Shown here: positions 8,758 to 63,438 of the stretch, piece by piece
How the letters are laid out: each line of letters begins with the position of its first letter
How positions within the stretch are numbered: position 1 is the first letter of the stretch
Notes under the pieces: model-generated
What the model saw: the letters and a program-made list of their open reading frames with translations, nothing else
Told to the model about the DNA's origin: nothing
Database searches by the model: none
Translations under genes and position numbers: made by a program
NCBI GenBank assembly: GCA_031286065.1
Contig: JAITUZ010000017.1
Coordinates: 1-64,000, forward strand
DNA length: 64,000 bases
From: Candidatus Methanimicrococcus odontotermitis
GTDB lineage: Archaea > Halobacteriota > Methanosarcinia > Methanosarcinales > Methanosarcinaceae
Reading direction: 5' to 3'

Positions 8758-9225
8758 GAGCGAAAAACGGCAAGAGAGATTATTAAACTTGCGGCAAAAA
8801 TCAAGCGTGATCAAACCGCCCTCCGCTGAAGAGGGAAACTGCAAGAGCGGCTCATAAAATGATTTTAAAAATCGCGTGAAATATAAACCGAAAATATTTA
8901 AAAATAATGAAATAGGACACGTCTCATTCAATAACGGTGAGCCCGAATAAAAATCGAAAAAATAAAAAACAGAAAGAAAGGTTGAAAAAATAAAAAACAG
9001 AAAGAAAGTTGGAAAAACAGAAAAAAGGTTTGAAAAATCAAGAATTAAAAGCCGTTTAACGGCATTGAGACTGAAAAAACAGATACTTTCACATCGCTTA
9101 CTGCGGCTATTTATAAAAAACAGGCGTTTTAGGGATTGTAATACGCCTGTATCGTAAATCAGAATCGTACTTATAAAAATAAAACAATTACATGAATCAA
9201 CTGTTCATTTGAGAGGAGAAATAAC

Positions 9226-10203: not shown

Positions 10204-10369
10204 ATAGAAAAGCGGCCGAAACATCCTGCCATGAAATGATCTCCGGCCGAAAAACAGAGACGGTTTTTTCGTCTCTGTTTGAATCACCTTTTCTTTTTTT
10301 GAATTTTAAATTAAATATTTCAAATCCGGCATACTCTTTTATATAATTCAAGCGACAAGTGAAACAGAC

Positions 10370-11443
10370 ATGTCCCCGGAAGAGCTTGCATTGTTCCCTT
10401 TTTTAACGGAAACGTCGGAATATGTCGAAAACCTGGATTTTTCCCTCGACGCGCTGATGACTTCCATGGTTTTTGAGTCCGTCAGAAGACGCGGTTTTGA
10501 GCGCATCATGCAGGCTTTTGACGGAGAAGTCTCCAAGCCGTCTTTCGGAAACGATAAAGAGGTTTTGTCAGAACTTTTGTCTTATCCGTACGCGCGTATT
10601 TTGGTTTCCTGCGTCAATGAACCTGCGTTTACGCGCCGCTATGCGCTTTCCGAAGCGACCGCCGCGTATTCCGTCATGAAAAAAGCAATCGAGAAAGATC
10701 CGGATTTCGTTTTAGACATCGGAAAAGATTTCGGCGTTTCCGCCGTATTGTCCGATGAACGCATCCGCATTTATTTTTCAGACTACGTCCGCTACGCGCT
10801 GTCTATGAAAGATTTGTCATGGAAATTGATCAACCGCCGCATCGAACACGGTTATGTAACGATCCGGCGCGAAGAGTTCGCGCGTCTGCTTCAGGAAGCG
10901 GTTCGAAAAAGAATAGAGGGATCGCTTCCGATCCGAGAAATTCCGGAGGAGATTCAAAACGCCTGCGGCGCGCAAACCGCGGAATTGAAAGCGAAATATG
11001 AAGAACAGCGCCAAAATCTCGGCGACGCGGATTTGGGCGAAGTGGATTTTTCCATGTTTCCGCCGTGCGTCAACAAAGCGCTTTCCAATGTCAGAGAAGG
11101 CGTCAACTTAGCCCACTCCATGCGTTTTGCGCTTGTGTCGTTTTTGCTCAATGCCGGCATGTCAACAGAAGACGTTGTCAAAGTTTTCAACGTGTCCCCC
11201 GATTTCAATGAAGAGAAAACGAGCTATCAAGTGACTCATATCGCGGGCAACCAATACAAAACGCCGTCCTGCGCGACAATGCAGACATACGGCAACTGCG
11301 CCGGCAAAGACAATATGTGCTCAAAAATCCGCCATCCTCTCGGCTATTACAGCGCGCTGAAGTTTTTAGCGGCAAAACGGAAAGCGGAAGAGGACAAATA
11401 CGGCAAGGACGAAGAAGCAAAAGAAGAAAAAATAAAAGAGTGA
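10370..11443 (+). CDS. priL: DNA primase large subunit PriL
   Basis: C-terminal Fe-S region YKTPSCATMQTYGNCAGKDNMCSKIRHPLGYY. Confidence 0.93.
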   Translation: MSPEELALFPFLTETSEYVENLDFSLDALMTSMVFESVRRRGFERIMQAFDGEVSKPSFGNDKEVLSELLSYPYARILVSCVNEPAFTRRYALSEATAAYSVMKKAIEKDPDFVLDIGKDFGVSAVLSDERIRIYFSDYVRYALSMKDLSWKLINRRIEHGYVTIRREEFARLLQEAVRKRIEGSLPIREIPEEIQNACGAQTAELKAKYEEQRQNLGDADLGEVDFSMFPPCVNKALSNVREGVNLAHSMRFALVSFLLNAGMSTEDVVKVFNVSPDFNEEKTSYQVTHIAGNQYKTPSCATMQTYGNCAGKDNMCSKIRHPLGYYSALKFLAAKRKAEEDKYGKDEEAKEEKIKE

Positions 11444-15005: not shown

Positions 15006-16307
15006 TTATTCGACAGCCGGAGTGAGAAGCCCTTTGTCCGTTACAAGCACTTTGTCAATACGAGCCGAATCCATATCTACCACTTCGATCTCAAAATGAA
15101 GCCAATCCAATTTATCGCCGACGACCGGAATTTTGCCGAATGTGTCTAAAATCATCCCGCTGAGCGTATTGTAAGAATATTCGCTGCGGCAGTCCAGCAA
15201 ATCAAAATATTCCAAAAAATCATAAAACGGATACTGACCGTCAATGAGCCATGAATCGGGAGACCGTTTGAATATTTCATATTCCTCGTGAGACGGGCGG
15301 GAGGAAGTGTCGCCAGCAAGTGCTTCAAAGATGTCGCTGAGAGTGACCAAACCTGTGATGCTGCCGAATTCATCTGTGATGATCGCGTACGGATGCTGCG
15401 CTTCGCGGAAATTTTCCAAAACGGATAAAATCGTCATGTTTTCCGGCAGGAAACTGACAGGCTGCATCACGTTTTCCAAACGGAAATCAGGAGTGTTAAT
15501 TTCACCGATAAGTTCTTTGACGAGCAAAATGCCGACAATATTATCAATACCGCCGTCGGCGACAGGATATACAGAAAAAGGCGTTCTTTTAATCACCTTC
15601 AGAACTTCGGTCTGCGTCGCTGAAACATCAATGAAAACAAGGTCATTTTTATGTGTGATGAGGGAACTGACTTTGCGGTCATCCAAGCTGAAGACGCGTT
15701 CTACCAAATCCTGTTCAGTCTCATCAATCGAACCGCCGTCGATGCCTTCCTGAACCGCGGCGATGACATCTTCTTCAGTCGTTTCCGGCTCATAAGATTT
15801 TAAGCCGAAAATTTTGCCGGCGAAATCGGCCGAACCGTTAACAAACCATGTGAACGGCGACAGCAGAATGGAAAGCCAATGTATCGGACCGGCGACAAAA
15901 CTCGCGATCTGTTCCGGACAGGAATAACCGATTTTTTCCGGAATCAGAATGCCAAAAACGATCAATAAATAAGTGATAAACGAAACGGCAGCAATAAATG
16001 AAAGTGATTGTGCGTATGGTTCTAAAATTGAAACGCGTGAGAATATTTCAGCCAAACTGCCGGAAACGGCGGCGGCCGTGTAAATCGAAATAAAAACACT
16101 GATTACCGTGACGCTGAGGCGCACAGCCGACAACGCCCGGAACGGGTCATCAGCGAGCATAAAAGCTTTCTGATATCCGGATTGCCCGTTTTTGGCGGCG
16201 CTTTTCAGCCGGGATTTGCGCGAAGATGTAATGGAAACTTCCGACAAAGACAGAAAACCGCTGACCAGTATTAAAATGAGAATGATAATAAGTTCCGTAT
16301 AAGCCAT
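15006..16307 (-). CDS. CNNM/CorC (DUF21 + CBS + CorC_HlyC) membrane protein
   Basis: LSLSEVSITSSRKSRL; CBS pair; ITDEFGSITGLVTLSDIFEALAGD. Confidence 0.92.
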   Translation of the reverse strand: MAYTELIIILILILVSGFLSLSEVSITSSRKSRLKSAAKNGQSGYQKAFMLADDPFRALSAVRLSVTVISVFISIYTAAAVSGSLAEIFSRVSILEPYAQSLSFIAAVSFITYLLIVFGILIPEKIGYSCPEQIASFVAGPIHWLSILLSPFTWFVNGSADFAGKIFGLKSYEPETTEEDVIAAVQEGIDGGSIDETEQDLVERVFSLDDRKVSSLITHKNDLVFIDVSATQTEVLKVIKRTPFSVYPVADGGIDNIVGILLVKELIGEINTPDFRLENVMQPVSFLPENMTILSVLENFREAQHPYAIITDEFGSITGLVTLSDIFEALAGDTSSRPSHEEYEIFKRSPDSWLIDGQYPFYDFLEYFDLLDCRSEYSYNTLSGMILDTFGKIPVVGDKLDWLHFEIEVVDMDSARIDKVLVTDKGLLTPAVE

Positions 16308-16492
16308 GGTGTATCAAACCGATGCTCACCATTTTGTTCGGCTTTGGTCTTAAATCTTTCTTAAAATAAATAATCAGCGGAAAAACATCGAAAAAGGCGA
16401 AGGATGAAAGAATAAAAAAAGAGAAATAAATGAAAAGGCAGATGAAAAAAGATATATTAAAAGGAGACGAGTATAAAAAAAGGAGGATAAAT

Positions 16493-16816
16493 ATGAGCTA
16501 TAAAAGAGAATCTCCCGAAAAAATCCAAGTTTTGATTTCTGAAAAAGAACTCAATTTCATTGACGTTCGATCGCCGCCGGAAAGAAACACTGACGGATAT
16601 ATCGCCGGATCCGCTGAAATGGATATACGCGGTGCCGATTTTGACCAAAAATTAAACACGCTGGACAAAAACAAAACAACCGTTTTTTACTGCCGCGCCG
16701 GAAATCGCTCGGCTGCCGCTTGCCAAAAAGCGGAAAATTTTGGATTTAAAGATATTTACATGATCGAAGGCGGCATCATCGCTTGGGAATCGCGCGGTCT
16801 GCCGACCCGAAAATAA
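16493..16816 (+). CDS. Rhodanese-like protein
   Basis: FIDVRSPPE, FYCRAGNRSAAAC; GGAGG upstream of the ATG at 16493. Confidence 0.92.
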   Translation: MSYKRESPEKIQVLISEKELNFIDVRSPPERNTDGYIAGSAEMDIRGADFDQKLNTLDKNKTTVFYCRAGNRSAAACQKAENFGFKDIYMIEGGIIAWESRGLPTRK

Positions 16817-16846
16817 AACGGATCAAAAAAAGGGTTTTGAAAAAAA

Positions 16847-17695
16847 TTATTCAAAATCTTCCTTCACATTTTTTCTTTGAATCCTCTTTTGAAATTCGCT
16901 GACGCCGACGATGAACAAATAAACGACGCTCATCACGAGAATAATGGTGGCCCCCGACGGCAAATCGAAAGAGTAAGACAAAGTGAGGCCCGCCAAACTC
17001 AGAACCGCGCCGATAACGCTTGAATAAACCATCATCGTTTTCATATTATGCGAAAACTTGCGGCTGATAGATGCCGGAATCGAAAGCATCGCGATAATTA
17101 AGATGATGCCGACGACTTTGATCATCGCGACTGTGGAGAGCGCGAGCAGGCAAAGAAGGAGGAAATAGATTTTATCAGAAGATACGCCGACGACTTGCGT
17201 GTACTCTTCGTCAAAGCACATGGAAAGAAACTCTTTGAAGAAAAGGATGACTGTAATCAGAATGATGCCGTCGATTCCGACCATGAGCCAAATATCAGAG
17301 GCGGGAACCGTCAAAATGTTGCCGAAAAGATAAGTCATCAAATCCGGAGCGTAGCCCGGTGTCAGAGAAATGAAAATGACGCCGAGCGCGACGCCGAGCG
17401 ACCATAAAATACCAATCGCCGAATCTTCGGAAACGTTTGTTTTTTTGCTCAAGAAACCAAGCGCGCCCGCCGACAAAATACTGAAAGGCAATAAGCCGAT
17501 GAGCGGATTGAGACCGAGATAAAAACTGAGACCCAGACCGCCGAAACAGGCGTGAGAAATGCCGCCTGCAATAAAAACGATTTTCTTGGTAACAACATAA
17601 ACGCCGATAACGCCGCAGGCGACCGACGTTAAAATCGTCGCCAAGATCGCGCGCTGGATGAAAGTGTACTGAAGCGCGTCCAAAATTTCAAGCAT
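16847..17695 (-). CDS. Metal (Zn/Mn) ABC transporter permease
   Basis: Multi-TM, GGISHACFGGLGL ZnuB-family motif; adjacent ATPase and SBP. Confidence 0.93.
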   Translation of the reverse strand: MLEILDALQYTFIQRAILATILTSVACGVIGVYVVTKKIVFIAGGISHACFGGLGLSFYLGLNPLIGLLPFSILSAGALGFLSKKTNVSEDSAIGILWSLGVALGVIFISLTPGYAPDLMTYLFGNILTVPASDIWLMVGIDGIILITVILFFKEFLSMCFDEEYTQVVGVSSDKIYFLLLCLLALSTVAMIKVVGIILIIAMLSIPASISRKFSHNMKTMMVYSSVIGAVLSLAGLTLSYSFDLPSGATIILVMSVVYLFIVGVSEFQKRIQRKNVKEDFE

Positions 17696-44337: not shown

Positions 44338-44353
44338 AAGCCAACGTCCGGAT
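44338..44353. repeat. attL candidate (tRNA-Cys 3'-end fragment)
   Basis: AAGCCAACGTCCGGAT identical to 63366-63381. Confidence 0.85.
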
Positions 44354-46281: not shown

Positions 46282-48753
46282 ATGACCATCAGACCAAATG
46301 GGAAAAAAGTTTCAACTCCGAATCCGGATGAAATTTTCAAAGACATGAATCCGAGAGTTTACACTAAAGAGGATTTAAAAAAACACGAAGACCGATTGAA
46401 AGAAATTTCAAAAGCCGAAACTGGATGGAAATTAGAAATCGTTGCTGTCCAGGAACAAACCATTGCTACATGTATCGGCTTTGAAACGCCACACAAAGGG
46501 CTTTAGGATATTCTTGTTGAATTTGAATATAATAAGAAAAAGAAAGGAAAAGCAAAATACACATTCAATTTCACAATTAACGAATTTAATGACAAACTGC
46601 AGCATGTTGAGAAAAATCTCAAAATCAATACCATAAACCCGATTGCAAAAGATGAAAAGTTTGAAAATGAACTGAAGACTTTTTTAACCGAAGCAGGCTA
46701 CAGCAAAAAGTATCTTCACATAAAAATGGCAACAGGAAGTATTCTGAGCATCTGGCAAGAATGGGAACCAAAAGAATTTCAAGCCTTATTTCCAGAAATG
46801 GTTTATAAATCTCCAAAATTAGATTACGCACCGGAAGATTGGATTTACCAAGACTGGATTATTGATTATCCGTATGATATCGATACGAGGAATGGCAAGC
46901 TTTACCGTTACATCATCAACAAAACAGAAGATGGCGATGACATCAAAGTACTGATTTCGGATTTGGTACTGGTTACAGCTGAGTACCAAGATATGGCCAA
47001 GGAAAATGAAATTTATTTCCGGTACCTAATCAGAAATGGCAAACGGAAAGTACAGACATTCATGATGTCAGCCGGAAAAATTTCAGACAAGGAATTCATG
47101 GATGACATTCGCCGCTGCATCATTGTGATTTATGGAGAGGAGAAGCATTTCAACCGATTTTTAACACTGTTCGCAATGCGGAACCGTGATGAAAAGAAAT
47201 TAGCCCATTATTACTTCAGTTCCCGGACAGGTTGGATCACACTTGAAGGAAAACAGTATTTCTTACTCGGAAGCCGTTTTTTTGACATAGAAGATAATTA
47301 TATGAGTCCGGCAGTTCCGACCGATGAGCTGGCCGGTCATGAGGAGTTTTTTGCCGGCATTGCAGATTCCGGAAACTATAGCGAATGGATTAAAGAATGG
47401 ATACCGGCTATTCAAGCTGAGGATCCGACCGGCTGTCAAATCTTCCTTGAGAACACAAACCTTTGGTTTACCGTTTATGCTCTTTCCGCTTCATTTTTAA
47501 TGAATATGTTTCCGGGAATGGAAAATACATTAATCATTAATAGCGGCACCACGTCTCGCGGAAAATCTACGATCGCAAAAATTGCGGCCAGCATGTTCGG
47601 AGACCCGAAAAAATTCATCACGCTCGGCAGCGGAACAGAAAACGGAATTTGGAATGCCTGGCTGAAATGGAATTATTTGCCGTCAATCATGGACGAATTC
47701 ACAAATACGAAACAAGAAATCAAAAACAAGATTCCGTATTGGTTCAGTGACGGGAAGGAAAAAGCGCGCTTAAATAAAGACGCGACAGCCAAAAGAACGA
47801 ATGAATTCCGTAAAATCGGCTATATTTCACTTGAGAATGATTTTGTGAATCAAGTCATGCGGTCAGGAGTCGATGCCCGTGTGATTCCCATTTATGACGG
47901 TTTGAATCTTCCGGACACTGAAGATGAAGAAGTCAACACCGCACGCGCAACACTCATTGATGATCTGGCCAGAGTGAAATCTCACAAATATTTCGGTTTT
48001 TACAAATATGAACTGCTCAAAACCATCAGCGAGGTGGGAACAGACAGAATAAATGAGATTTATGAAAGTGTTTCAAAAACATATACGACAACAAATGACA
48101 CTTTAACAGCGCGTCTGGGAGCAAGTTTCGCTCTGTTTCATGTTTCGGGGATCCTCGTTGAAATGACAAATGAACGGCTGCAGATCCGCAACCAAACTTC
48201 ATCTGAAGAACTTCATGAAATGGTTGAAACTCGCTGCAAAGAAATTCTGGATCAAGTCGTTCAAAATATCGGTGATCATGATTGGCAGGTTGTTCTGGCT
48301 GATGTCTTGGCCCGTGCGGACAACTCTGAAACTCGCACGCGCTGGCTGACGGACGAGCAATTGATGTACCCGTACCGCCCCGATGATGAATGTTCAATCC
48401 GATATCCGGACAAAATTGAGGCCTGGTTTTGCAATGATGGCATGATTGAATATGTCGATGTGGCACCGGATATTCTCAAAACGGTCTGCATATCAACAGT
48501 GGGAAAACCGTCAATGAATAATGTTTTAAAAGAATGGACGGACAAAAAAATAATCAAACCATTAAGAGATGACCAAAAAACAGTCATGCAACGCCATTAT
48601 GATGTTCAAGGCGGCAAAAAAGTCAGGACACCGGTTTATCGGATTAACCTTCAGAAAGCCAAAGAATTGACCGGATATGATCTGATGTATCGCCGGCGGG
48701 AATTGCTGGATGAAATTCAAAGTGATTTAGAAGATTTTGATTCTACAAATTGA
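46282..48753 (+). CDS. DUF927-like helicase/primase-type ATPase containing an in-frame TAG at codon 75 (candidate pyrrolysine)
   Basis: Track ORFs 46282-46506 and 46726-48753 share one frame with no other stop between; Walker A NSGTTSRGKSTIAKIAASMFGDP; DEFTNT. Confidence 0.82.
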
Positions 48754-48836: not shown

Positions 48837-49874
48837 TCACTCCTGTTCCGATAAATTATACTTTGATTTAACTCTTTTTTCAATATCCTCAATCGAAGGA
48901 AGAGTATCTTCAAACTCTTTTGGCAAGTATTCTGTTAATTTATATTCACTTACACCAATGGGTTTTGTCATATCTTTCAAGGCATATTCAGCAATTGTTT
49001 TATTTTTGTTCCGGCATAAAATAAGCCCGATAGAAGGATTATCTTTTTCCTTTTTTAAAAGTTCATCTACGGCTGAGAGATAAAAATTCAACTTGCCGGC
49101 ATATTCCGGTTTAAACATCCCTGCTTTTAACTCTATCACAAAATAACAATGCAGATTCGTATTATAAAAAAGTAAATCAATATAAAAGTCTTCACCGCCG
49201 ACTTCTAAATGATACTGATTTCCAAGAAAAGCAAAACCCGTTCCAAGTTCCAAAAGCAATTTGGAAATATTTGAAACCATCTCATTTTCAATGTCACGTT
49301 CAACCATCTGATCTTTTGCCTCAATAAAATCAAACCAATATGGGTCTTTGAGTGTTTGAACAGCAAGTTCGCTTTGTGCCATATCAAGCCGTGCCGGATA
49401 ATTCGTTGTTTTAGATGCTGAAATTTGGCGCTGGTATAAGTGGGATTCGAGTTGATGTTCTAATACTCCGACTGACCAGTTGTTTTCCGCAGTTTTTAAA
49501 ATATACCACTCCATTTGCCCTCGATCTTTCACTTTATCCAAAATGGACTTATTATGCGTCCACGGAATTTGTGCAGTCACTGACTGCACAAATTCAAGGT
49601 CATTATATGTTGACGCAAATTTTTGCATGTATTTTAAATTCCTCACGGAATAACCTGTAACATTTGGAAAGTCAGCTTTAATGTCCCGCGACAGATTTTC
49701 CACAAATTTATTGCCCCACCGCTTATTTTCAAGTATGATATTTCCGATATTCCAATATAGAGTAAGCAATTCCCGATTCGCGCCGACAACAGCCCTATAC
49801 TGTGCGGTTCTAATTTGAGACTTGATCTCCTCTAAAATACTAAAATATTCGGAATTATTTATCAGCATATGCAT
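48837..49874 (-). CDS. PDDEXK nuclease-domain protein (DUF1016/YhcG family)
   Basis: ARTAQYRAVVGANRELLTLYWNIGNII-like N-term, AQIPWTHN, FYIDLLFYNTNLHCYFVIELKAG...GLILCRNKN. Confidence 0.93.
   Translation of the reverse strand: MHMLINNSEYFSILEEIKSQIRTAQYRAVVGANRELLTLYWNIGNIILENKRWGNKFVENLSRDIKADFPNVTGYSVRNLKYMQKFASTYNDLEFVQSVTAQIPWTHNKSILDKVKDRGQMEWYILKTAENNWSVGVLEHQLESHLYQRQISASKTTNYPARLDMAQSELAVQTLKDPYWFDFIEAKDQMVERDIENEMVSNISKLLLELGTGFAFLGNQYHLEVGGEDFYIDLLFYNTNLHCYFVIELKAGMFKPEYAGKLNFYLSAVDELLKKEKDNPSIGLILCRNKNKTIAEYALKDMTKPIGVSEYKLTEYLPKEFEDTLPSIEDIEKRVKSKYNLSEQE
49565..49595. repeat. Perfect 15-bp inverted repeat (31-bp near-complete palindrome) inside the DUF1016 gene
   Basis: GAATTTGTGCAGTCA-C-TGACTGCACAAATTC. 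Confidence 0.95.
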
Positions 49875-50275: not shown

Positions 50276-50420
50276 AAGTATAAAAATACCGGTACAGATA
50301 TAAAATGGTTATGTGAAAATAAAGGAAACTGCAATCATTTTTCAAAAAGTGTTATTTTATAATAAAATAATACTTTGAATTCACACTTGATAAAAAACTT
50401 ACAAAAATTGAAAAAAATAA

Positions 50421-50721
50421 CCATGACAACCATGACAACTTAAAAAATAGGCATATTGCTATTGATAGTTCACTGATGCTTTTTTGATTTACTGTTATTG
50501 TTTTTTTTGTCATGGTTGCATACCATGACAATACCATGACAACCATGACAGAACCATGACAACACCACGACAAAAACAAAGTTGTCATGGTTGTCATGGT
50601 AAAAAATAATGTTGTCATGGTTCCAAACCATGACAAAAAAACAAGCATTAGAAGGATGAAAAGAGAGCGGCAAAAAACAGAATCTGACGGAATCATTTAA
50701 TGTTGTCATGGTTGTCATGGT
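50421..50721. repeat. Iteron-like array: 13 exact CCATGAC/GTCATGG copies plus one variant, in nested inverted arrangement
   Basis: Copies at 50421,50430,50509(-),50523,50534,50543,50554,50584(-),50593(-),50614(-),50628,50705(-),50714(-); variant CCACGAC at 50565. Confidence 0.95.
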
Positions 50722-51025
50722 GAAAAACACATCATTTTTATTTTTTTGAAAAAACTGAAAAAAGCTGAAAAACCGATTTGTGTTACTCCGGAAAAATAAA
50801 AAGACGAACGAATGAGACTTTTAAAAAATAGAGATTCAGAAAAAAGACAAAAAAATTCTGCATTTTATTCAAAAAAAAGACGAAAATTTGATAAAAAATT
50901 GATTTTTTATTATTACAAAAAATAACCGATTGCGTTTTTAAAAATTTTATTCAGGATTTTATTTCGGAAAGAATAAAAAAGAGATGAGGAGACACGAAAG
51001 TATAAAACAGGAACAGGAGAGCATA

Positions 51026-51535
51026 TTATAAAAAATAAACCAAAACTGACAATAAAATATTTCCAAACGTGCAGCTGATCAAAGCGGCCGGTAAAAATCC
51101 GACAAGTCCGGGCGCCGGGCGGTCAGGCTGAAGAAACCGGAACAAAAGCAAGATAGGAACTGACAGAATCATAAAATTGCAAACAATGTCAAGAGCCGGA
51201 AGTGTCCCGATTCCGGGCAAAATCAAACCATCCGGATAAACCGGCAAAAATAGAATTAACCCGGAAAAGATTTTGACATCAGCCGCGCCGATTGAACCGA
51301 ACATGACAGCACCAGCAGAAAAAACATAAGATAGGACAAAAAGAATGATACCGATTATTATTTCGTGAAATGTCACCGATTTTAAAAACAAAAAATCAAT
51401 AAAAATAAAACAAGATACGCAAATCAAAAAAACGCTTAAAAGCAACTTATTTGGAACGCGCCGGGTCTTAATATCCAGCGGCATGAAAATAAAAGCAATC
51501 GACATCATAAATAAAACTGAAGCAATTGTGAACAT
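51026..51535 (-). CDS. Prepilin/preflagellin peptidase-like aspartic protease (A24 type)
   Basis: DIKTRRVPNKL and GxHyD-type GAADVK motif in multi-TM protein. Confidence 0.8.
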   Translation of the reverse strand: MFTIASVLFMMSIAFIFMPLDIKTRRVPNKLLLSVFLICVSCFIFIDFLFLKSVTFHEIIIGIILFVLSYVFSAGAVMFGSIGAADVKIFSGLILFLPVYPDGLILPGIGTLPALDIVCNFMILSVPILLLFRFLQPDRPAPGLVGFLPAALISCTFGNILLSVLVYFL

Positions 51536-51541
51536 GATTTA

Positions 51542-51907
51542 TTACTCCCGGATTCGGACTTCTTTTAAAAACGCTTCAAGGGTTTCCCTCAAAAGGCAGC
51601 TCATTGAACAGCCGATCTTCTCGGCATCACGCTTCAGATCATCCCGCATCTCGGGCGAAACCTGCACCAAGAGAACTTTCCATTTTTTGGCCGAAATTTG
51701 ATCCTTTTGATTGCCGGTGTCGGTCGAAAAATCATGGTCATAATTTTGAAGTTCTTGATGTACCCGATTCCAAACCAGCCTGCAGACGGCTGCCCGGCTC
51801 ATGTTCATCAACTTTGCTTTTCGGTCCAGCTCCGCGGCAGTTGAGCGGCTGATCATGATTCTTATCTGGACTTTTTTGTTCGTTTCAGGCGCCGGTGTTC
51901 CGGCCAA
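51542..51907 (-). CDS. DNA-binding regulator with two tandem ribbon-helix-helix-like domains
   Basis: VQIRIMISRSTAAELDRKAKLMNMSRAAVCRLVWNRV and KVLLVQVSPEMRDDLKRDAEKIGCSMSCLLRETLEAFL. Confidence 0.72.
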   Translation of the reverse strand: MAGTPAPETNKKVQIRIMISRSTAAELDRKAKLMNMSRAAVCRLVWNRVHQELQNYDHDFSTDTGNQKDQISAKKWKVLLVQVSPEMRDDLKRDAEKIGCSMSCLLRETLEAFLKEVRIRE

Positions 51908-51972
51908 AATGACTGCGGTTTCCGTTTGAAATTCCCCCGGGAAAAGCGATTCAAAAATCTCATTGTCTCAAA

Positions 51973-52080
51973 ATTATACAATGCGGTTTAAATAGGAAAT
52001 ATCAGCATTATTGTAATATAATGAATTTTGAAGATTAACATTATACAATATTGTATAAATGCATTCGTTATTGTATTAAT
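51973..52080. promoter_or_regulatory. Divergent regulatory region with perfect 18-bp palindrome TTATACAATATTGTATAA (52041-52058) and extra half-sites
   Basis: ATTATACAAT at 51973, palindrome at 52041, ATTGTA motifs near 52010 and 52069. Confidence 0.7.
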
Positions 52081-52220
52081 ATTGTTTGCCTGAAAGGGCA
52101 GGAGTGATACAAATGACCGTATTAGTCAACAAATCAACAATATTGACGGAAATTTATTGTTCAATTCTCATGATTTGGACAACAGTTCAAAGGAAGGTAA
52201 CAAATAAACTGAAACAGACG

Positions 52221-52559
52221 ATGTCAAACTGGAGAACAGTCATGAGCATCGCTGTTGCGAACGCTTATTCACCGATTAACGGCGCAAAGACCATTTACAA
52301 AACATTTTATGCGGAAGATGCCGTTGAGCGAGGATCTCTAACCGATGCTGTTGTCGGCCTATTCGTTTTTGGTATGGTTTTGGTTGCGGCATACATCGGT
52401 ATCGGCATGGTTGAGCCCTATTTACCAACAAGTGATGGAACGCTTGATGCCGATGCACAGAAGACGCTTGACACCATCCGCGCAGCTCTCGGCATTGCCG
52501 GCGTCTGTATGATTTTCATTTCACTTGGTTTATTGATTGCGACATTGCGCAGCTGGTAA
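52221..52559 (+). CDS. Candidate major capsid protein (two-TM, spindle-virus VP1-like); the track start 52086 is also possible
   Basis: ERGSLTDAVVGLFVFGMVLVAAYIGIGMVEPYLP...AALGIAGVCMIFISLGLLIATLRSW: two hydrophobic helices with short loop. Confidence 0.55.
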   Translation: MSNWRTVMSIAVANAYSPINGAKTIYKTFYAEDAVERGSLTDAVVGLFVFGMVLVAAYIGIGMVEPYLPTSDGTLDADAQKTLDTIRAALGIAGVCMIFISLGLLIATLRSW

Positions 52560-52575: not shown

Positions 52576-52869
52576 ATGGCGATGGATGGAATTCTTTATT
52601 CTTTATTTTCGGCAGTCGCGATTCTCGGCGTCTGGATCGGCATAATTGAATTCCGGCTTTCCCGGTCAACTGACGCGGTCATTTTTCCCGGGACATCTCT
52701 CCTTTTAACAATTTTATTGATGATTTCATCAAAATTTGTAGAAACCGAACTGTTCAGTCCGGCTGAAAGTAATTTCATATTTGCTTTTTGGCTCTGCATG
52801 TTCATTTTAAGCTTTGGATTAATGTTTGTCATGGCTGCCGGAACATTCCGGTCTGAAGGAGTTAAATAA
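52576..52869 (+). CDS. Small three-TM provirus protein
   Basis: Start at MAMDGILYS with upstream AAGGAAG; TAATG overlap with next gene. Confidence 0.7.
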   Translation: MAMDGILYSLFSAVAILGVWIGIIEFRLSRSTDAVIFPGTSLLLTILLMISSKFVETELFSPAESNFIFAFWLCMFILSFGLMFVMAAGTFRSEGVK

Positions 52870-53336
52870 TGTCTGAAATGGGAAATCAATCGGATTACGC
52901 CGGACAAATTACACCGGAAGATATTGTGAAATTGAGGCAAGCCGGCCTCGGAGCCGAAATTTCGAAGTTGTTTCTGGAAGATGAATTTGTCGAAGATATG
53001 ATCTCTCCGGAAGTCAAACCTTATTTTGATGCAATCCGAAAAGTCGGCATCGGACAGTATGATAAAAAAGATGTCGAGAAGCTGTTGAAAAAAATTGACT
53101 CGATGAAAACGACATTCATCATGTCATCAATGGAATCAGAATACACATGGCAGCATGAGCGTGAATTTACGATGCTGAGTGTCCTCGCGATTAAAAACAC
53201 AAGCATGGGAATTGACGGCACATTCCTGAAACGTGCATTCGGCAGCATTCAGGAAACGAATTTGGTTCAGACCATGAACAGTCCGCAGCAAGCGCGGCCC
53301 GGATTAATCGCTTCATTTTTCAGTAAAAAACGATAA
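52869..53336 (+). CDS. Provirus hypothetical protein
   Basis: Operonic ORF with start/stop overlap. Confidence 0.7.
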   Translation: MSEMGNQSDYAGQITPEDIVKLRQAGLGAEISKLFLEDEFVEDMISPEVKPYFDAIRKVGIGQYDKKDVEKLLKKIDSMKTTFIMSSMESEYTWQHEREFTMLSVLAIKNTSMGIDGTFLKRAFGSIQETNLVQTMNSPQQARPGLIASFFSKKR

Positions 53337-53361: not shown

Positions 53362-54384
53362 ATGGATTCATTGTGGATTTGGACAACGTTTTTCTTTGGA
53401 ATGGCATGCGGACTGTTGTTTATTTTTTCCATCGTTTATATAAAATGGAGCGGCCCTTACAGCTGGGTTATTTTTAAGGCAAGGCTGAACGGATACCGCG
53501 TCAGTTGGTTTATTGATAATCATGGTGAAGTCCATCCGGAAGCCGTAAAAGGAGAATTCGGCTATCATGCGGCTGATGCAGGAATTTTCCTCCCGGATCC
53601 GGACAATCCGGTTTCAACCGACCGTGGAAGACACAAAGGCGGTGTTTTTGACACAAACATGGCCGCCGGAATCAATTTTATTTTGATGAAAGCCGCAAAA
53701 AAACTTTCAAAAACAAATACTAACGGGCACACAGAAACAGTCAGCGGAATAAATCAAACGATTATTGAGTCGAATGAACTGGCGGAAGTCAAAGCCGGAG
53801 AGTTCGAAGAAGAAATGTTAGAGGAGCTGGCTGATGCCGGCGGACAAGCTGACGCAATGATTGTTTCGGCGAGAGAAAAAGCGTTGGATGAGCTGAAAAG
53901 TATCAGAGAAGAATTTTATAACTCAGAGGAAGTTACCGATGAGGATTTAAAAAAGAGACTTGAAGACGCTTTTGAAATTATTTATGCTTCAGTGACCGAA
54001 GAATTCACTGAGGAGTCATCGAGTGAAAAAATTGCCGAGAAATTAACGCCGGTTATTGAAAAATATACAAACAAAGTCGAAAAGCTTAAAAAAGAGTTTG
54101 GAGACCGGCTTCTTTTGAGCGACACTGAAATTAAAGCGCTCCGTCATTATTATGTATTGAACCAGCCGCAATACGTTGAGAAAAAGCTTCAGGCATCGGT
54201 CAATGAAGCTGTTTCGCGCGAAAAGAACAATATGAAGACATTCATGATGATTGCCGCGTTTGTCATTGTTGCATTTCTTGCCGTCGTTTTGGCAATTTAC
54301 TTACTCGGCAACGACCCGACTGTAATCATTCAAAACGGCTCGGATTTTATAACGGCCAATAATTCAACAACTCTTCCGATGTGA
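53362..54384 (+). CDS. Provirus membrane protein, TM at both ends with coiled-coil middle
   Basis: N-term FFFGMACGLLFIFSIVYI; C-term FMMIAAFVIVAFLAVVLAIYLL. Confidence 0.72.
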   Translation: MDSLWIWTTFFFGMACGLLFIFSIVYIKWSGPYSWVIFKARLNGYRVSWFIDNHGEVHPEAVKGEFGYHAADAGIFLPDPDNPVSTDRGRHKGGVFDTNMAAGINFILMKAAKKLSKTNTNGHTETVSGINQTIIESNELAEVKAGEFEEEMLEELADAGGQADAMIVSAREKALDELKSIREEFYNSEEVTDEDLKKRLEDAFEIIYASVTEEFTEESSSEKIAEKLTPVIEKYTNKVEKLKKEFGDRLLLSDTEIKALRHYYVLNQPQYVEKKLQASVNEAVSREKNNMKTFMMIAAFVIVAFLAVVLAIYLLGNDPTVIIQNGSDFITANNSTTLPM

Positions 54385-54869: not shown

Positions 54870-55783
54870 TGCCGAGCGTATTCTTGCGTGACGCTCTTGT
54901 GAAATAGAGAAAGGAATGCGAAGTAAAAGAACGGGAAGATGCCGAGGGAACGAAAAAACCTGTTCTTCGTTTGCTTCAAAAAAATTTGGAAGGGATTGTC
55001 CGCGTTTGCAAAGAAAATCGGCTCGATTGGCCGATTAACGTCGTCGGTGCGGAAGGTTCGGGAAAGTCAACGCTTGCCGCACATATTTCTCAAAAGCTGG
55101 CCGAGATGACCGGGCAAGAGTTGGATTTGGCAGAATCGATGATTTATTCGTTTGACGAGCGTGATCGCCATGGAGCTCCGCTTAAAAACTCATTGGTCGG
55201 ATTCGTTGACAAGTATCAATCAACGGAATTTAAAATATTATGGTATGATGAAGCTGTCACTGTTCTTTTTTCGGACGAACACGCAACGAGAGAATCAAAA
55301 GAGGCGAAAAAACTGTTTATCACGAAGCGTGACATGTGCCATTTTGATATTTTAGTATCACCGTCACCGTTTCACATCATCAAGGATATTCGGAGCCGCC
55401 GCGTTAAAACAATGATTTATTGCTTCATCATGGAAGATCCGGAAACAAAACGCTTCAAGCACAAATATGCCTGGTACTCGGCCGATAAAATCGTTTCAAT
55501 GTCATACGGTTCGAATCAGAAAAAAGCTGAAGTTCTGTTCCGCCGGCCGAAACAATTTATAAACGCGTTTCCGCCGGATTTTATTGAAGATTTCCCGAAA
55601 ATGACGCAAGAATTCGAAGAAAAATATCTTTTGACAAAGCGCACATTCATGAAAACGTATATTGACTCACTCGTCGGCGGCGAAAAAACAGCTGCTGATT
55701 TAGTGCTTCCTGAGAATTTCAGCTTTATACCGGTCTTTGACAAGCTGGTCGGCAAAACTGCCGGCGGCGAGGAGGCCGTCTGA
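54869..55783 (+). CDS. P-loop ATPase (candidate viral packaging/AAA-type) with in-frame TAG at codon 13
   Basis: AGGAGGT SD at 54855-54861, ATG 54869, MPSVFLRDALVK-TAG-RKECEVKEREDAEGTKKPVLRLLQKNLEG...; Walker A GAEGSGKST, Walker B-like ILWYDE. Confidence 0.82.
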
Positions 55784-58569
55784 TGGCATACGGAAAAGCA
55801 ACTGTTGTGGATTCGGGAAACTCATCGGGATCGCTTACCAATACCGTCCGCGAAGCCGCCGGAAACGCTGTACGAAATGCGCAGAATTCCGGCGCAAGCA
55901 AAGCCGATGTAATTAAAGCACGAGATGCGGCGAAAGAAAGTGTTTATGCCGGTGCTGTTCAAGCCATCAATACCGGTGGCAGTTATAAAGGGATGAGTGC
56001 ACAGCAGCTGCATAATGAGCTTTACGGCGGACTGGAACAAACGGCGACTCAACACGGAACACCGATTGCACTGGTTCAGAGCCGCAACCATTTGCAGAAC
56101 ATGCAAAATGCCGGCTTCTATGACGCTGAATGGAATCCCACAAACAAAGCATTGCAAGGGCAGATACAGAAGAACCAAAGCCAACCGCCAATAACTGTAA
56201 TAGATTTTAAGCCGGCGGCCGTCCAACCAAAAGAACTCAGCATCAGAGAGCGCATTAATTACGAATCGATGAGACTTAAAGAATCAAAGATTCCAATAAT
56301 AAGAGGAGCTGCGGCTTACCTTCCGAATTATTATGATCCGGAAGTTATGGAGAAAGCGAAAGAAAACAACATTGATTTTAATGAGGTTGCTTCGTCAGTT
56401 TCTTCCTTGATGGGCCCGATCGGTATTCTGAATATTTCAGAAAGTGATAAAAATCCGTTTCGAACTGACAAAAACAAATTGGTGGATGCGACTTTAGAGG
56501 GTCTTTTTTATGGATTTACCGGTGAAGATGTTTCCGGAAAAAGTGAAATCGTCCAAGCGGCCGGCAATCGCGGAACAAACTGGATTGATGCGAAGACAGG
56601 TGCTTTGCATGAGTGGTCTATGCGAAATTTGGACGGGCGATTCTATGAGATTGGATCATTTGTTCGCGGCATGGTTCCGGATTCAATTGTCGGTGTCGGC
56701 ACATTGATTAGTGAAGGGACAAAGACAATTACAGCCGGCTTCCGGGAAGCGAAAAAATCAGGAGCAAACCTGACAGGAATCACCCGTGGTCAAGCGATGT
56801 CAACGTCTTTTGCCGGCATGCTCGGGTTCGGTATCGGCACAATTGCCGGCGGAACAGTAAGAGGAGCAATAGACGACCCGATTGCCTTTGCCGGCGGATT
56901 GATTGGAACCGGCGGTGCAGGCGGTATTGGGAAGTTGGGCATGGGAGTTGGGAAATTCAGATTGAAAGCTTTCAAACAAGCCGCAGGTAAAATTGATGTT
57001 TCACTCAAAGATTTGGGCGTTGATCCTAAAGTGATTAAGATGGGAGGAGATGTTTACAGACTTGAGGGGAAAGCAGCGTTTCCGGATGCTTATCCTGTTA
57101 AGACTGGAATTAAAATGCATGAAGGAGTTTCGATGCTGGAAAATGCAAAAAATCTCTACCCGGGGGAGAAATCCGGAAGCACCGCGATTATTCACTCAAG
57201 TCCAAAAAACAGAGGAGATATTTACAGTCCGCATGTCGGAAAGTCTTCGGAACCAGGCATGTTTGGAGCAGAATCACCTTCAATCCGATTTATGAAGATT
57301 CCATATTTTAAAAATGCAAAATTGGTCGGATTTTCAAATCCTTTCAGCCCATCTAAGTTAAATGAACTCAGTCCAAGAATTATGTTTATTGAGGGGAAAG
57401 GAATTAGATCACCAGAAGTCACATCAGGGGTTAAAACAAATAAGTTTTTACTAAATGATGCAGATGCTGGTTATTTCTGGACAACTCATAAGATGAGACA
57501 AAGAATTGAGAGCGGAAAGCTTGTAGAAGTAGAAGCTGTCGTTTCTCCAAAAACCACAATTTCGACCTACGACAATAAACCGTATTCTGATGCAACTCTT
57601 TACAGAATCGAATCAAAATACCGAACAACAGTTAAACAGCCGATTGATTTCCCCGGAATTAAAATGGATGTTGATTTAAAAGTGCCTGTTGAAAAATATA
57701 TTATGGTCACGGCTGATGATATGGCCTTAGTTCCAGTTTCGGCGCCGGCAAAAAAATCCAAGTTTTTTTCTCCAGATTCGCATGGAAAAGACGGTTCTTT
57801 GACTTATCCGGTCGGAACGAATATGAATCTTCACACGGGACCGAAACCGATTAGAACGGTCACCGAAATTTCAAAAAAAAACGGCAGCATCAAAGAAATG
57901 TTTACAGCCCGCCGAACAGCTTCAGCTGATGTTGTCAATAGGCATAAAGCCGGCATGGCTTCAAAAAATTATGATGCGAAAAAATTGTTTGAATCCGCCA
58001 AATCTAAAAAGACCGCGTCTGCCGAATCTAAACCGATTACATCTGCCGCGTCTCCAACCGCTGCGCGGATCAGCGAGCTGACGGACGGGAAAAATGCCGG
58101 CGATCTGATAAAAAAAACATCAAACACACAAAGCATCGAGGACTTGATTCGAAAAAAAGCACCACCGAAAACAAAAAAGTCGGACTCCGGAAGCAGCCGC
58201 AAATCACCAAAACAGCCGGCATATCCTCTTGTCGATTTAACATACAGCCCTTTGGGTGTCTCACGCGGCGCCAAATCCAAATCAAAGCCCTCTAATTCTC
58301 GCGGCGGTTACTACAGCCCGACCTCGGGGTATGGATACGGCAGCAGTAAAAGTTCATCTCCCGGTTATTCCGGATATGGAGGCGGCAAAAGTTCATCATC
58401 AAAAACGGCACCGTCTAAAGCAACAACTCGACCGATTGTACATAAACAGACATCAAAGAAATTAAAGAAAGAAGAACCAATCAGTCCCGCTAAACGGACA
58501 AAGAAAACCACGAAAAAATCAACAAAGAAAGAATTTAGGGTTAACCCGCTCAGGGGGCTGAAAATCTAA
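55783..58569 (+). CDS. Large provirus structural-type protein with Ser/Lys/Gly/Tyr-rich basic C-terminus
   Basis: 928 aa; central Gly-rich hydrophobic segment; TGATG start overlap. Confidence 0.7.
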   Translation: MAYGKATVVDSGNSSGSLTNTVREAAGNAVRNAQNSGASKADVIKARDAAKESVYAGAVQAINTGGSYKGMSAQQLHNELYGGLEQTATQHGTPIALVQSRNHLQNMQNAGFYDAEWNPTNKALQGQIQKNQSQPPITVIDFKPAAVQPKELSIRERINYESMRLKESKIPIIRGAAAYLPNYYDPEVMEKAKENNIDFNEVASSVSSLMGPIGILNISESDKNPFRTDKNKLVDATLEGLFYGFTGEDVSGKSEIVQAAGNRGTNWIDAKTGALHEWSMRNLDGRFYEIGSFVRGMVPDSIVGVGTLISEGTKTITAGFREAKKSGANLTGITRGQAMSTSFAGMLGFGIGTIAGGTVRGAIDDPIAFAGGLIGTGGAGGIGKLGMGVGKFRLKAFKQAAGKIDVSLKDLGVDPKVIKMGGDVYRLEGKAAFPDAYPVKTGIKMHEGVSMLENAKNLYPGEKSGSTAIIHSSPKNRGDIYSPHVGKSSEPGMFGAESPSIRFMKIPYFKNAKLVGFSNPFSPSKLNELSPRIMFIEGKGIRSPEVTSGVKTNKFLLNDADAGYFWTTHKMRQRIESGKLVEVEAVVSPKTTISTYDNKPYSDATLYRIESKYRTTVKQPIDFPGIKMDVDLKVPVEKYIMVTADDMALVPVSAPAKKSKFFSPDSHGKDGSLTYPVGTNMNLHTGPKPIRTVTEISKKNGSIKEMFTARRTASADVVNRHKAGMASKNYDAKKLFESAKSKKTASAESKPITSAASPTAARISELTDGKNAGDLIKKTSNTQSIEDLIRKKAPPKTKKSDSGSSRKSPKQPAYPLVDLTYSPLGVSRGAKSKSKPSNSRGGYYSPTSGYGYGSSKSSSPGYSGYGGGKSSSSKTAPSKATTRPIVHKQTSKKLKKEEPISPAKRTKKTTKKSTKKEFRVNPLRGLKI

Positions 58570-58811: not shown

Positions 58812-61220
58812 ATGAAATTAATAAAAACACTCCTCACCCTTTTATTTTTATTCATATTGATGCAGACAGCGAACGCCGAAACGGGTTTGTATGAATTCCC
58901 TGTCGGAGTCGGCGACAACACGCTAGACTTAGGAAACGCATACAACGGCTCATATGTCAATTCCATAACCGGAACTGTTTATGAATCTTCTTTGCATTAT
59001 CAGGAAGTAACAATTAATGTTCCGGACACTGATAAGATAGGAACAAAAAGAACGCTGAAGCTGGATGTTCTGTTTACTGACGGAATGAAATTGGATTTTT
59101 CAGATGTTTATTTCACGGATCGGAATTTTAATATTATTCCGATATATCGTGACATGAATTCGACTGTCAATGGGAGCAATGCTACTTTTTATTTGTATTT
59201 CGACAGCATCGCGGCTCAAAACGATTTATACATGTGCTGGGGAGTCGGGTCGAATCCAAAACAAGATTCGTATGTTTTTTTGGCAAATTTTGGAAATGGG
59301 GAGACATATACCACCAGTGTCAATTTCAACGTGTATCGTCCGGAGAGTTTATACAATATTTCGACATCGCCTGCGTCTACTTTTAATTATACGAATGCTG
59401 AAGTTATTTTCTCGATGAGTGGTTCCGGCTCGAATCATAATACAGCGCCATGGCTAAGACTGAAAATAAATTCATCAAATAGTTCTGCTCTCACTAATTC
59501 TGTCGGTACATGGGTTGAGGGCGGCCGATTGTTTTTAATAACGTTTCCAGGTTGGATGCAGACAGAAATTCGTCCAATTTCCACAACTATCATCAAACTT
59601 GAATCTTCTCTGATAAATTCGACTTTAGTTGGAAATGCAAATAATATAACATCAATCTGGGATCTTACAAATAATGACTGGACTAATGTTTTTAGTTTTA
59701 ATCGCGGGTCCGGTTCCATAACCATTTATTCATTTAAAACATATAATTCTACAAATTTTACCGCAAGTTTCGGAGAAATTAATAAACTCGTAGCTTCGGA
59801 ACATCCGATTACAATCTCTTATCCAGCTTCCGATTTTTCGACATTGGATTTTGAATCAGAGTGGGTCGGAAATTTAGAATTTAGAATAAATTATGACCCC
59901 CATGCCGTTTTGTCAACGCCGAACGATGCAACATTCCAAGAAACCGCCATTCTGCAATTTGAAATAAACCCGCAAAATCTGCAGCTGCCATATCAGATCG
60001 CTCTTGACGACACTTTTTTCAGCATCGTCAATTCCGGATCATCGTCCGGAATCATTTCAGTAAAGTTGCCGGCAAACAATTATTACTGGAGAGTGATGCA
60101 GCCGGACGGAAATTATTCGGATATTCGGACGTTTACGGTCACAGAACCGGGACCGATTCAGGGGTCATTAAATTTTACAATAAGAAATGAACTGACAAAC
60201 ACATCTGTGTCGGCAACCGTTACGATTTCAAACAACACAACAACTTTACAAAAAACAGGTTCTACTGTTACATTTAACAGTTCCGAAGTCACGGCCGGCA
60301 ATTACTCGGTTCGTGTCAATTCAACAAACAATTCAACGCGGTTTTATGAAGTCGTTAGTCCGGGAGATTATACTCTTTATATTTTACCGATAACGGTGAA
60401 CACATCCGTTGTTTATTTTTCGTTGATTGACAACACAAATCAGTTTCAATACAATTCGACCAAACTCGAAATCATAAAACAGACAACGAACGGTTCAATT
60501 GTTGTCACAAGCAATTATTTTGATGCGTCCGGCTTTGTTGTCACAACTCTTAATCAATTCGATAATTATATTCTTAAAGTCGTTTCGGATTCAGGAACTG
60601 AAAGAATTTTGGGAAACTACATTCAGGCCGGTCAAACATCAATCCAACTTGTCATTTCAGAAATTATCTTGAAGGATCCTGATGTTAACATACACGGAGG
60701 ATTCACTTACAATCTGAAGAAATCTCTGGAAGGAATTAAACTTGAGTGGCGGAATCCGAACAGTGATGCATTAACTGAGCCATTTACGTTCAAAATCTTA
60801 AAGGATGGGGAGCAGGTGATGAACATTACATCGACCGCACCTTTCGGCCTAATTCATTATATTGATACAGGCGGCGGCGAACTTGATCCGAATGCGACAT
60901 ATGAGATCATCTTTGAGGCCGAAACAACCGGCGGAAAAATTAGGGTTCACGAATTCTACAAAATCAGCGGTGAAATAACCGGAATTAACTTTGACATTAT
61001 CCCGGCACCAGTGAGAATCATTGTGACAATTGGACTGCTCGTTCTTGTGGCCAGCCAATTCAACACAACAAACGCTAAATTTGCAGCGGTTGTCGTATCA
61101 GTTATTGCATTATTCTTATCGTTTGTTTCATTCTTTCCGGTCGGAAATGCAATATTGGTTTTCGTTTGGCTGCTGTTCATTGCAGTCGTTGCACTGAAGA
61201 CGAGCAGGAGGTTCGGATAA
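58812..61220 (+). CDS. Large exported adhesin/spike-like protein with C-terminal TM segments
   Basis: Signal peptide, N/T/S-rich ectodomain with Ig-like repeats, C-terminal hydrophobic helices. Confidence 0.75.
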   Translation: MKLIKTLLTLLFLFILMQTANAETGLYEFPVGVGDNTLDLGNAYNGSYVNSITGTVYESSLHYQEVTINVPDTDKIGTKRTLKLDVLFTDGMKLDFSDVYFTDRNFNIIPIYRDMNSTVNGSNATFYLYFDSIAAQNDLYMCWGVGSNPKQDSYVFLANFGNGETYTTSVNFNVYRPESLYNISTSPASTFNYTNAEVIFSMSGSGSNHNTAPWLRLKINSSNSSALTNSVGTWVEGGRLFLITFPGWMQTEIRPISTTIIKLESSLINSTLVGNANNITSIWDLTNNDWTNVFSFNRGSGSITIYSFKTYNSTNFTASFGEINKLVASEHPITISYPASDFSTLDFESEWVGNLEFRINYDPHAVLSTPNDATFQETAILQFEINPQNLQLPYQIALDDTFFSIVNSGSSSGIISVKLPANNYYWRVMQPDGNYSDIRTFTVTEPGPIQGSLNFTIRNELTNTSVSATVTISNNTTTLQKTGSTVTFNSSEVTAGNYSVRVNSTNNSTRFYEVVSPGDYTLYILPITVNTSVVYFSLIDNTNQFQYNSTKLEIIKQTTNGSIVVTSNYFDASGFVVTTLNQFDNYILKVVSDSGTERILGNYIQAGQTSIQLVISEIILKDPDVNIHGGFTYNLKKSLEGIKLEWRNPNSDALTEPFTFKILKDGEQVMNITSTAPFGLIHYIDTGGGELDPNATYEIIFEAETTGGKIRVHEFYKISGEITGINFDIIPAPVRIIVTIGLLVLVASQFNTTNAKFAAVVVSVIALFLSFVSFFPVGNAILVFVWLLFIAVVALKTSRRFG

Positions 61221-61589
61221 ATGGAAACTTATAAAATTACAGTTTTTTTGATAATTTTGAATTATACAATCTTCGCATTTGCGGCACTTGGTGTTTTCCC
61301 GATAGAGTATCCGTATATCAGCGAATATATCGACCCGTCAACATTTTCCGGAAACGTTCCCGAAAATATCAGTTATGACAGTATCAGCTACGGCAATTAT
61401 ATTTTTGGCGATTTCATTCGAGCGCTTGTCATGATTGCCGCACTGCTGGTCATTGCACCGTTTGCGCTTGCGTTTTTATTAAACTCATTGGGCATTCCGA
61501 CATTGATTTCAACACTTTTGATCATCATGCTGTCAATTATTTATATCAAAGATTTGGCTGAGTTCATTGGAAACCGCATTATAAAATAA
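61221..61589 (+). CDS. Small multi-TM provirus protein
   Basis: Operonic, hydrophobic segments. Confidence 0.68.
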   Translation: METYKITVFLIILNYTIFAFAALGVFPIEYPYISEYIDPSTFSGNVPENISYDSISYGNYIFGDFIRALVMIAALLVIAPFALAFLLNSLGIPTLISTLLIIMLSIIYIKDLAEFIGNRIIK

Positions 61590-62194: not shown

Positions 62195-62288
62195 CAAGTA
62201 CCGGTTTTGACAATAAACTTTTTTTATTTTTTCCAAATGTATGGGATGTGGCGGGCTACCGCCGCATGAACAATTCGGAGATATAAAA

Positions 62289-63233
62289 ATGGAAAAAATT
62301 CTAAACCAATTCCATGTTTTTTTAATAAAACAAGGCAAAGACAAAAGAGTATGCAATTCATACAGAAATGATGTCCGGACATTCTGCGAAGTTTGCAAAA
62401 TAACAAATGTTGAACAATTGAATTTTAAAAAAGCTTCGGAATATGATCCGATTTTTTTGACTTATATCAATTGGCTGAAGGATGTCCGGAAAAACAAATA
62501 CAAAACAATGTGCAGAAAGCTTTCAGCCCTTGAAAAATTCTTTGCGTTTTTGGTCAGATATGATTTTATCATCATGGATCCTGTTCCAAGCTTCAGGCAA
62601 TTTAACATGCAAGAACACAAAACAGAAGATTCTGAAATGAGAATGCTGCCGGAACCAAAAGAAGTAAAAGTTACCCTAAAAAACAGTAACAACATCAAAC
62701 TTTTTTTCATGATCGCCCTATTGGCAAAATCCGGTGCACGCCGGCAAGAAGTCATTGATGCCGACCACGAAGATTTCAAAATCGAACGCAAAATCTGGGA
62801 AGTGAAAAGCCATCCGAAACGAACAGGCAAAAAAATACCACTTGATGATGAATTGATTGCCATTTTCAAAATATATATGAAAACCAGAACGGACGATTGC
62901 CCTGCACTGTTCATTGGGAAAAGAGGGCGGCGAATAAATAAAGACGCACTGCGTGAAGACCTGACGGATGTATTCAGGAGATGCGGACTGTATAAAGACG
63001 GCGGTAAACTGGACGAACGTCTGACGCCGCATTGCTTCAGACATTTCCAAAATACACAATTGGATTTAAGCGGCCTCCCGAGAGGAATTTTAACAGAGAT
63101 TCGAGGAGATCAGCGGAAAGACATTGACAGCTGCGAAAGATACATCCATTACAATGAAAAGAACCTCGTGAAGATTTATAACCAACATAAAATAAAGCTT
63201 GTTGGAAAAAGCATGCGATTACCGAGAAAATGA
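62289..63233 (+). CDS. Tyrosine recombinase/integrase
   Basis: AKSGARRQEVIDA (catalytic R), HCFRH (HxxR), CERYIHYN (Y); adjoins tRNA; start at MEKILNQF preferred. Confidence 0.92.
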   Translation: MEKILNQFHVFLIKQGKDKRVCNSYRNDVRTFCEVCKITNVEQLNFKKASEYDPIFLTYINWLKDVRKNKYKTMCRKLSALEKFFAFLVRYDFIIMDPVPSFRQFNMQEHKTEDSEMRMLPEPKEVKVTLKNSNNIKLFFMIALLAKSGARRQEVIDADHEDFKIERKIWEVKSHPKRTGKKIPLDDELIAIFKIYMKTRTDDCPALFIGKRGRRINKDALREDLTDVFRRCGLYKDGGKLDERLTPHCFRHFQNTQLDLSGLPRGILTEIRGDQRKDIDSCERYIHYNEKNLVKIYNQHKIKLVGKSMRLPRK

Positions 63234-63365: not shown

Positions 63366-63381
63366 AAGCCAACGTCCGGAT
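63366..63381. repeat. attR candidate overlapping 3' end of tRNA-Cys
   Basis: AAGCCAACGTCCGGAT identical to 44338-44353. Confidence 0.85.
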
Positions 63382-63438
63382 TTGAACCGGAGTAGATTCG
63401 CTCTGCAGGCGAACGCATAGCCGCTCTGCCACGTTGGC
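63367..63438 (-). tRNA. tRNA-Cys (GCA)
   Basis: Cloverleaf: acceptor GCCAACG/CGTTGGC, anticodon stem TTCGC-CTGCAGA-GCGAA, T-arm CCGGTTCAAATCCGG, U73 discriminator. Confidence 0.95.

Follow-up and report, generated by a model that had tools for sequence, protein, structure and literature searches.

Pilin leaders must come off before pili can form. Archaeal prepilin processing sites sit before the hydrophobic domain, and a G, A or S at position -1 is apparently needed (PMC4371748). N-terminal cleavage is also known from a viral coat protein. The VP1 protein of SSV1 is cleaved in virions and has a glutamate as its mature N-terminus, while the protease was reported as unknown; the N-terminus is required for infectivity, and a scaffolding role has been proposed for it (PMC5748691). 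Read from the SSV1 genome, the bond is LTKG/EATNIG (a slash marks the cut), with a helix directly after it. In all eight fusellovirus VP1 precursors examined, the published start of the mature protein reads [KR][GA]/E, and the helix comes next. The seven others read RG/EA, KG/EG, KA/EG, RA/EA or RA/EG, and several of the leaders are short and basic, for example MRWQIRKLRRA/EGFNVG in SSV19. This is the textbook class III layout, and host prepilin peptidase PibD is therefore the natural candidate for the protease. An S. islandicus pibD mutant blocks SSV9 ahead of genome replication (PMC7217056), so this mutant is no test of VP1 processing.

Methanosarcina spindle-shaped virus 1 (PQ167755) of the Eurekaviridae, a spindle-type virus with VP1-like coat proteins, has been assigned to Methanosarcina (PMC12451623). 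It is likened to the present elements by its published description.

The window is the whole stretch of DNA analysed here, 64,000 nucleotides from Candidatus Methanimicrococcus odontotermitis (family Methanosarcinaceae; a 1.75-Mb draft, G000). Exact 16-bp direct repeats at 44338 and 63366, the latter at a tRNA-Cys gene, occur together with a tyrosine integrase, which means that the 19.0 kb between them is an integrated element. Its features are listed in Table 1. The preliminary description spoke of a virus-encoded peptidase, and the gene in question, at 51026-51535, does lie inside this att-bounded provirus. Prepilin peptidases also occur in conjugative elements of Thaumarchaeota (PMC6563490). 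A conjugative element was considered here and rejected, as the element genes examined include none recognisable as serving secretion or conjugation.

Table 1 Features of the provirus and its insertion site, in window positions.
Feature	Position	Strand	Basis
attL, 16-bp direct repeat AAGCCAACGTCCGGAT, left end of provirus	44338..44353	+	identical 16 bp at 63366-63381
DUF927 primase/helicase-like replication protein	46726..48753	+	PF06048 E 5e-21; phrog_8841 DNA primase/helicase E 2.6e-27
Short A24 prepilin peptidase, 169 aa	51026..51535	-	PF01478 above Pfam cut-off
Ribbon-helix-helix (RHH) regulator between A24 and MCP genes	51542..51907	-	phrog_876 transcriptional repressor E 1.3e-5
Divergent intergenic region with repeats TTATACAAT/ATTGTATAA	51970..52080		possible RHH operator for A24 and MCP operons
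Predicted major capsid protein (MCP) precursor, two transmembrane helices	52113..52559	+	MCP-like relatives in 12 other proviruses
Predicted leader processing site V-E-R-G/S-L (cut between G and S)	52323..52340	+	alignment with relatives; host prepilin sites
Small membrane protein, always after MCP	52579..52869	+	weak match to L015; position shared with other elements
Conserved soluble element protein	52869..53336	+	E 7e-4 to 2e-9 against L013-L018
Conserved membrane-anchored element protein, syntenic	53362..54384	+	position and helix pattern as in L013, L016, L018, L019
P-loop ATPase, distant relative of fusellovirus B251/DnaA-like family	54971..55783	+	phrog_5484 E 1.3e-4; 33-42% identity to other elements
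Large element protein, Ser/Gly-rich C-terminus, possible structural protein	55783..58569	+	E 1e-6 against L016 and L017
Large secreted protein, C-terminal helices, possible spike/tail protein	58812..61220	+	E 1e-31 to 1e-43 against other elements
Conserved membrane protein, structural operon	61221..61589	+	31-40% identity to five elements
Tyrosine integrase	62241..63233	+	PF00589 E 1.7e-13
attR (63366-63381) and target gene tRNA-Cys (63367-63438)	63366..63438	-	repeat in tRNA-Cys 3' end

The provirus also holds a gene for a YhcG/DUF1016 PD-(D/E)XK nuclease (48837-49874), possibly serving defence or competition. The AT-rich stretch at 50352-50730 has repetitive minus-strand ORFs rich in His, Asn and Asp (HDNHDN), and is probably a repeat array rather than genes.

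The gene at 51026-51535 was first described as encoding an A24-type protein with the motifs DIK and GAADVK. This holds up: the protein carries both aspartate motifs and scores 28.1 bits for Peptidase_A24, against a cut-off of 26.5 (34.5 bits in a six-frame search). The catalytic codons are those of D21 (DIK), at 51473-51475, and D86 (GAADVK), at 51278-51280. Short A24s are found in six elements (window, L013, L019, L018, L075 and L076), and a profile scan of the element loci gave beyond these only a host gene. D-x-[KR] and G-[AG]-[AG]-D-x-K are present in all six. In their alignment D21, G83, D86 and K88 are invariant, and both aspartates are also found in one host copy. PF01478 scores elsewhere are 61.1 bits (L018), 60.4 (L076), 35.6 (L075) and 26.7 (L019); the L013 copy, at 20.4, is under the cut-off. 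A profile of the six element A24s and one host A24 matched M. maripaludis FlaK in the PDB (3s0x) at E 2.2e-10. A fold search with a low-confidence AlphaFold model of the A24 (pLDDT 59) matched nothing. By sequence the protein is an A24 family member with a FlaK-like core, and its proteolytic activity is predicted.

The proviral A24s have both aspartate motifs, the membrane core and the family match in common with PibD, FlaK and EppA (PF01478). They differ in length (131-170 aa, against 200-300 aa in the host copies) and are divergent in sequence. They are also borne by proviruses and paired with a capsid-like gene, unlike PibD, FlaK and EppA, which go with pilins.

A PF01478 search of 11 genomes found 21 A24 genes. 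In sixteen the frame is 216 aa or longer, and all sixteen lie outside the elements; the other five, whose frames measure 133-175 aa, are without exception inside proviruses, for which a rough Poisson estimate gives p about 1.5e-7. The window genome has two further A24s, one chromosomal with a 216-aa frame and one short; the latter is on contig C34, where a paralogous ATPase of the element type lies 3.6 kb away. A maximum-likelihood tree places the element A24s outside the host clades, on long branches and with weak deep support. An early worry was that the peptidase might simply be a host gene, but the host A24 turns out to be separate and longer, and the element copies are not nested among the host copies.

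The partner gene had been placed at 52221-52559. It probably starts upstream of this, at the ATG at 52113, which has AGGAG 8 nt upstream; the ATGs at 52221 and 52242 are also possible. The R-G-S-L followed by a hydrophobic helix that was read in the partner is present, as VERG/SL with a transmembrane helix behind it. The predicted cut falls between codons 52332-52334 and 52335-52337, just N-terminal to helix 1. An alternative site in the window, AEDA/VE, is four residues upstream of VERG/SL.

The MCP-like proteins of the related elements are some 13-20% identical to the window MCP, and their leaders are unalignable apart from their ends. These ends read E-x-[A/G] directly ahead of helix 1 in 11 of 12 MCP-like proteins, the window included: DESG, NEAG, DESA, DEKA, HEGA, NEKA, NEQA, NEGG and DERA, with VERG in the window. 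A small G or A at -1 ahead of the hydrophobic helix is likewise found in 11 of the 12. The window VERG deviates from the [NDH]E.[AG] of the other elements. Beside a hydrophobic segment, [NDH]E.[AG] occurs 10 times among 409 segments (371 ORFs of the element loci), each time in an MCP-like protein, a count that is partly circular, these proteins being the source of the pattern, and that speaks of specificity rather than independent discovery.

At -2 there is R or K in the window, L018, L077 and L080, and S, A, G or Q in the rest, so that the charged residue favoured by prediction rules is absent from 7 of the 11 sites with a leader. Host prepilins in the same genomes also have S, Q, N and I at this position. 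PF07790 prepilin sites there are DERG/IA, DEKG/IA, DCQA/VS, DCSA/VS and NDKA/VS, and in the window's own genome DNSG/IS. The leader layout matches that of these class III prepilins. A class III signal context had been suspected from the start, and besides matching the host prepilin layout it is like the published VP1 cleavage point (PMC5748691).

Euryarchaeal type IV pilins (PF07790) and the MCPs share the leader and site layout, and within the same genomes their local motifs are nearly identical. However, the pilins have one helix and a globular head, where the MCPs have two helices and a short loop. Hydropathy gives these two hydrophobic helices and the short loop for the MCP-like proteins of all elements. 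A Pfam search found no match of the window MCP to the pilin family. An AlphaFold model of the MCP has two long helices at low confidence (pLDDT 66), and a fold search with it matched nothing. Of the initial choice between a capsid-like and a pilin-like or surface-filament protein, the capsid half is the best reading, and the pilin half finds no family match. A scan of the element ORFs for prepilin-like sites, as a sign of a second substrate, gave none that was convincing.

The comparison with VP1 has several parts. Both in fusellovirus VP1 (SSV1, SSV19) and in the MCPs, a leader ends in a [G/A]/ site right before the first of two helices. The fusellovirus sites differ from the methanogen ones in combining a basic -2 residue with E at +1. 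Fuselloviridae and the methanogen elements, the latter known here from their genes, both have a small membrane-protein-rich operon and a B251-family ATPase. The ATPases are distant members of phrog_5484 (B251 family), at E 1.3e-4 in the window, 1.9e-5 in L016 and 5.4e-6 in L080; SSV1 B251 belongs to this family at E 5e-101. Direct comparison of MCP and VP1 profiles is not significant (hhalign probability 2.7%), and a profile built without fusellovirus sequences gave no VP1 match. One VP1 match was discarded, as VP1 itself had been in the profile. What is proposed to link the MCPs to VP1 is their architecture, the layout of the genomes and the distantly related ATPase of B251 type. SSV1 has no recognised viral protease gene, whereas the window provirus has its A24.

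Roughly a dozen genomes in the family were found to hold related proviruses. Starting from the window ATPase, a further element of the window's own genome was reached (L013), as were elements in a congener (L019) and in five Methanosarcina genomes (L014-L018). An MCP profile search added elements in G086, G096, G098 and G060 and a second one in G080; an A24 search added that of G011 (L075). The shared gene order is MCP-like, small membrane, soluble and membrane-anchored protein, ATPase, and large proteins. Searched singly, the window MCP and ATPase gave nothing useful in viral and genome contig collections or phage records. A scan with an ATPase alignment gave one Methanosarcina contig and nothing viral, and other MCPs and an A24 searched in viral contigs gave nothing.

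The A24 is beside capsid-like genes in five of the six elements that have one. The preliminary description had the A24 just across from its partner. The arrangement is indeed divergent, but the RHH gene lies in between, separated from the A24 by a 6-bp gap in an apparent operon. Conservation of the pair was checked, and the window, L013, L019 and L018 all have an RHH-A24 operon facing the MCP operon. In L075 the A24 adjoins two-helix genes, and in L076 it is about 4 kb off, near the integrase. The provirus of the Methanosarcina genome G074 has its short A24 at 3226414-3226809 and its MCP gene at 3225273-3225656, with a predicted cut behind TDEKA. RHH_1 and NikA-like matches of the regulator are under the cut-off. 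TTATACAAT has 6 copies in the window where 0.6 would be expected, three of them between the RHH and MCP genes, where the TTATACAAT/ATTGTATAA repeats include one palindrome. These repeats are a plausible operator coupling A24 and MCP expression.

A24 is not detectable in 8 of the 13 elements with an MCP-like gene, and the leader is kept in seven of these eight. A viral A24 copy is therefore not obligatory. The eighth, L014, has a leaderless MCP-like protein that starts MADITDG and has its own ribosome-binding site. It is like His1 ORF21 of the Halspiviridae, a two-helix protein starting almost at helix 1; being leaderless, ORF21 has no need of a peptidase.

The pairing of a proviral prepilin-type peptidase with a probable capsid substrate is well supported by comparison of the elements. 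The sequences show to which family the peptidase belongs, with its catalytic motifs, where the provirus ends, that the genes are paired, and that site and layout are conserved; from there on, we infer the capsid identity, the cleavage, its site and a role in assembly. The element would be a spindle-shaped-virus-type provirus, its two-helix coat protein made as a leadered precursor. The leader would be cytoplasmic and of class III layout, with the processing site immediately N-terminal to helix 1. The short A24, expressed from the divergent operon with the RHH regulator, would enter the membrane and cut VERG/SL by means of its two aspartates. Loss of the leader would then free the N-terminal helix, and the hairpin could pack into the virion shell. 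Where a related element lacks the A24, the prepilin peptidase of the host would do the work, or, as in one element, the protein would be made leaderless; in fuselloviruses the host enzyme would cleave VP1. That a spindle-type provirus removes its MCP leader with its own A24, while A24-less elements turn to the host and one does without a leader, is considered likely.

It is improbable that the targets of the proviral A24 are instead prepilins or archaellins of the host, and that it changes the cell surface in this way, say as a block on superinfection, with the MCP processed by the host or not at all. The hosts do encode PF07790 pilins, pilins and PibD matter in SSV infection (PMC7217056), and the leader persists in seven elements that have no A24. 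However, the A24 is found by the MCP in four elements and by two-helix genes in a fifth, and not with pilin or receptor genes. To a host that already owns an A24, an extra copy adds little.

The leader end could also be an uncleaved topology or scaffolding signal, with the A24 a passenger unimportant to the virion. The patchy presence of A24 (6 of 14 elements) would fit this, as would the need for the SSV1 VP1 N-terminus in infectivity and its suggested scaffolding role. But VP1 is cleaved in SSV1 virions (PMC5748691), the site is conserved where the remainder of the leader is not, and both catalytic motifs persist in element A24s that have diverged very strongly, which makes this reading unlikely. 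It is very doubtful that the two-helix protein is some other A24-matured membrane protein, in an element that is not spindle-shaped-virus-like: although the VP1 profile match is not significant and the fold search with a low-confidence model gave nothing, the protein resembles VP1 and His1 ORF21 in having two helices with a short polar loop between them, its gene is first in a conserved membrane-protein-rich operon with a B251-family ATPase, and the recognised viruses include a spindle-shaped one of Methanosarcina whose coat protein is of a similar type (PMC12451623).

Cleavage of the MCP by the proviral A24 may be one case of something wider. There is a slight lean towards prepilin peptidase cleavage as a general maturation step of leadered spindle-virus coat proteins, with fuselloviruses borrowing PibD and methanogen proviruses often carrying an A24. 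If so, spindle virions would be built through a pilin-like maturation pathway, and virion assembly would be tied to the type IV pilus system. With a candidate enzyme beside a candidate substrate, the question of the VP1-type protease (PMC5748691) becomes testable in tractable archaea. No earlier proposal of a prepilin peptidase for archaeal virus coat proteins was found in the open literature, most subscription papers being outside this search.

Some of the related elements have features of their own. In L015 (15761-16051) and L016 (7313-7603), the A24's place behind the RHH and small membrane genes is occupied by a conserved protein of 96 aa, unrelated and with a single predicted helix, which could be a functional replacement. 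The divergent G011 element, L075, seems to encode a number of small, coat-like proteins with two helices in the surroundings of its A24 (10112-10381, 10887-11237 and 15782-16888), two of which share the motif GALLTVGL.(I/V)N.GL. The G080 provirus L014 encodes TatC (PF00902 E 9e-40) and TatA (E 2e-14) at 6354-9253, in addition to two chromosomal TatC genes in G080. It also encodes a protein with a polysaccharide-deacetylase domain, whose N-terminus (RRKFLKYMG) is twin-arginine-like. A virion or surface enzyme may be exported here by a route that the provirus itself supplies.
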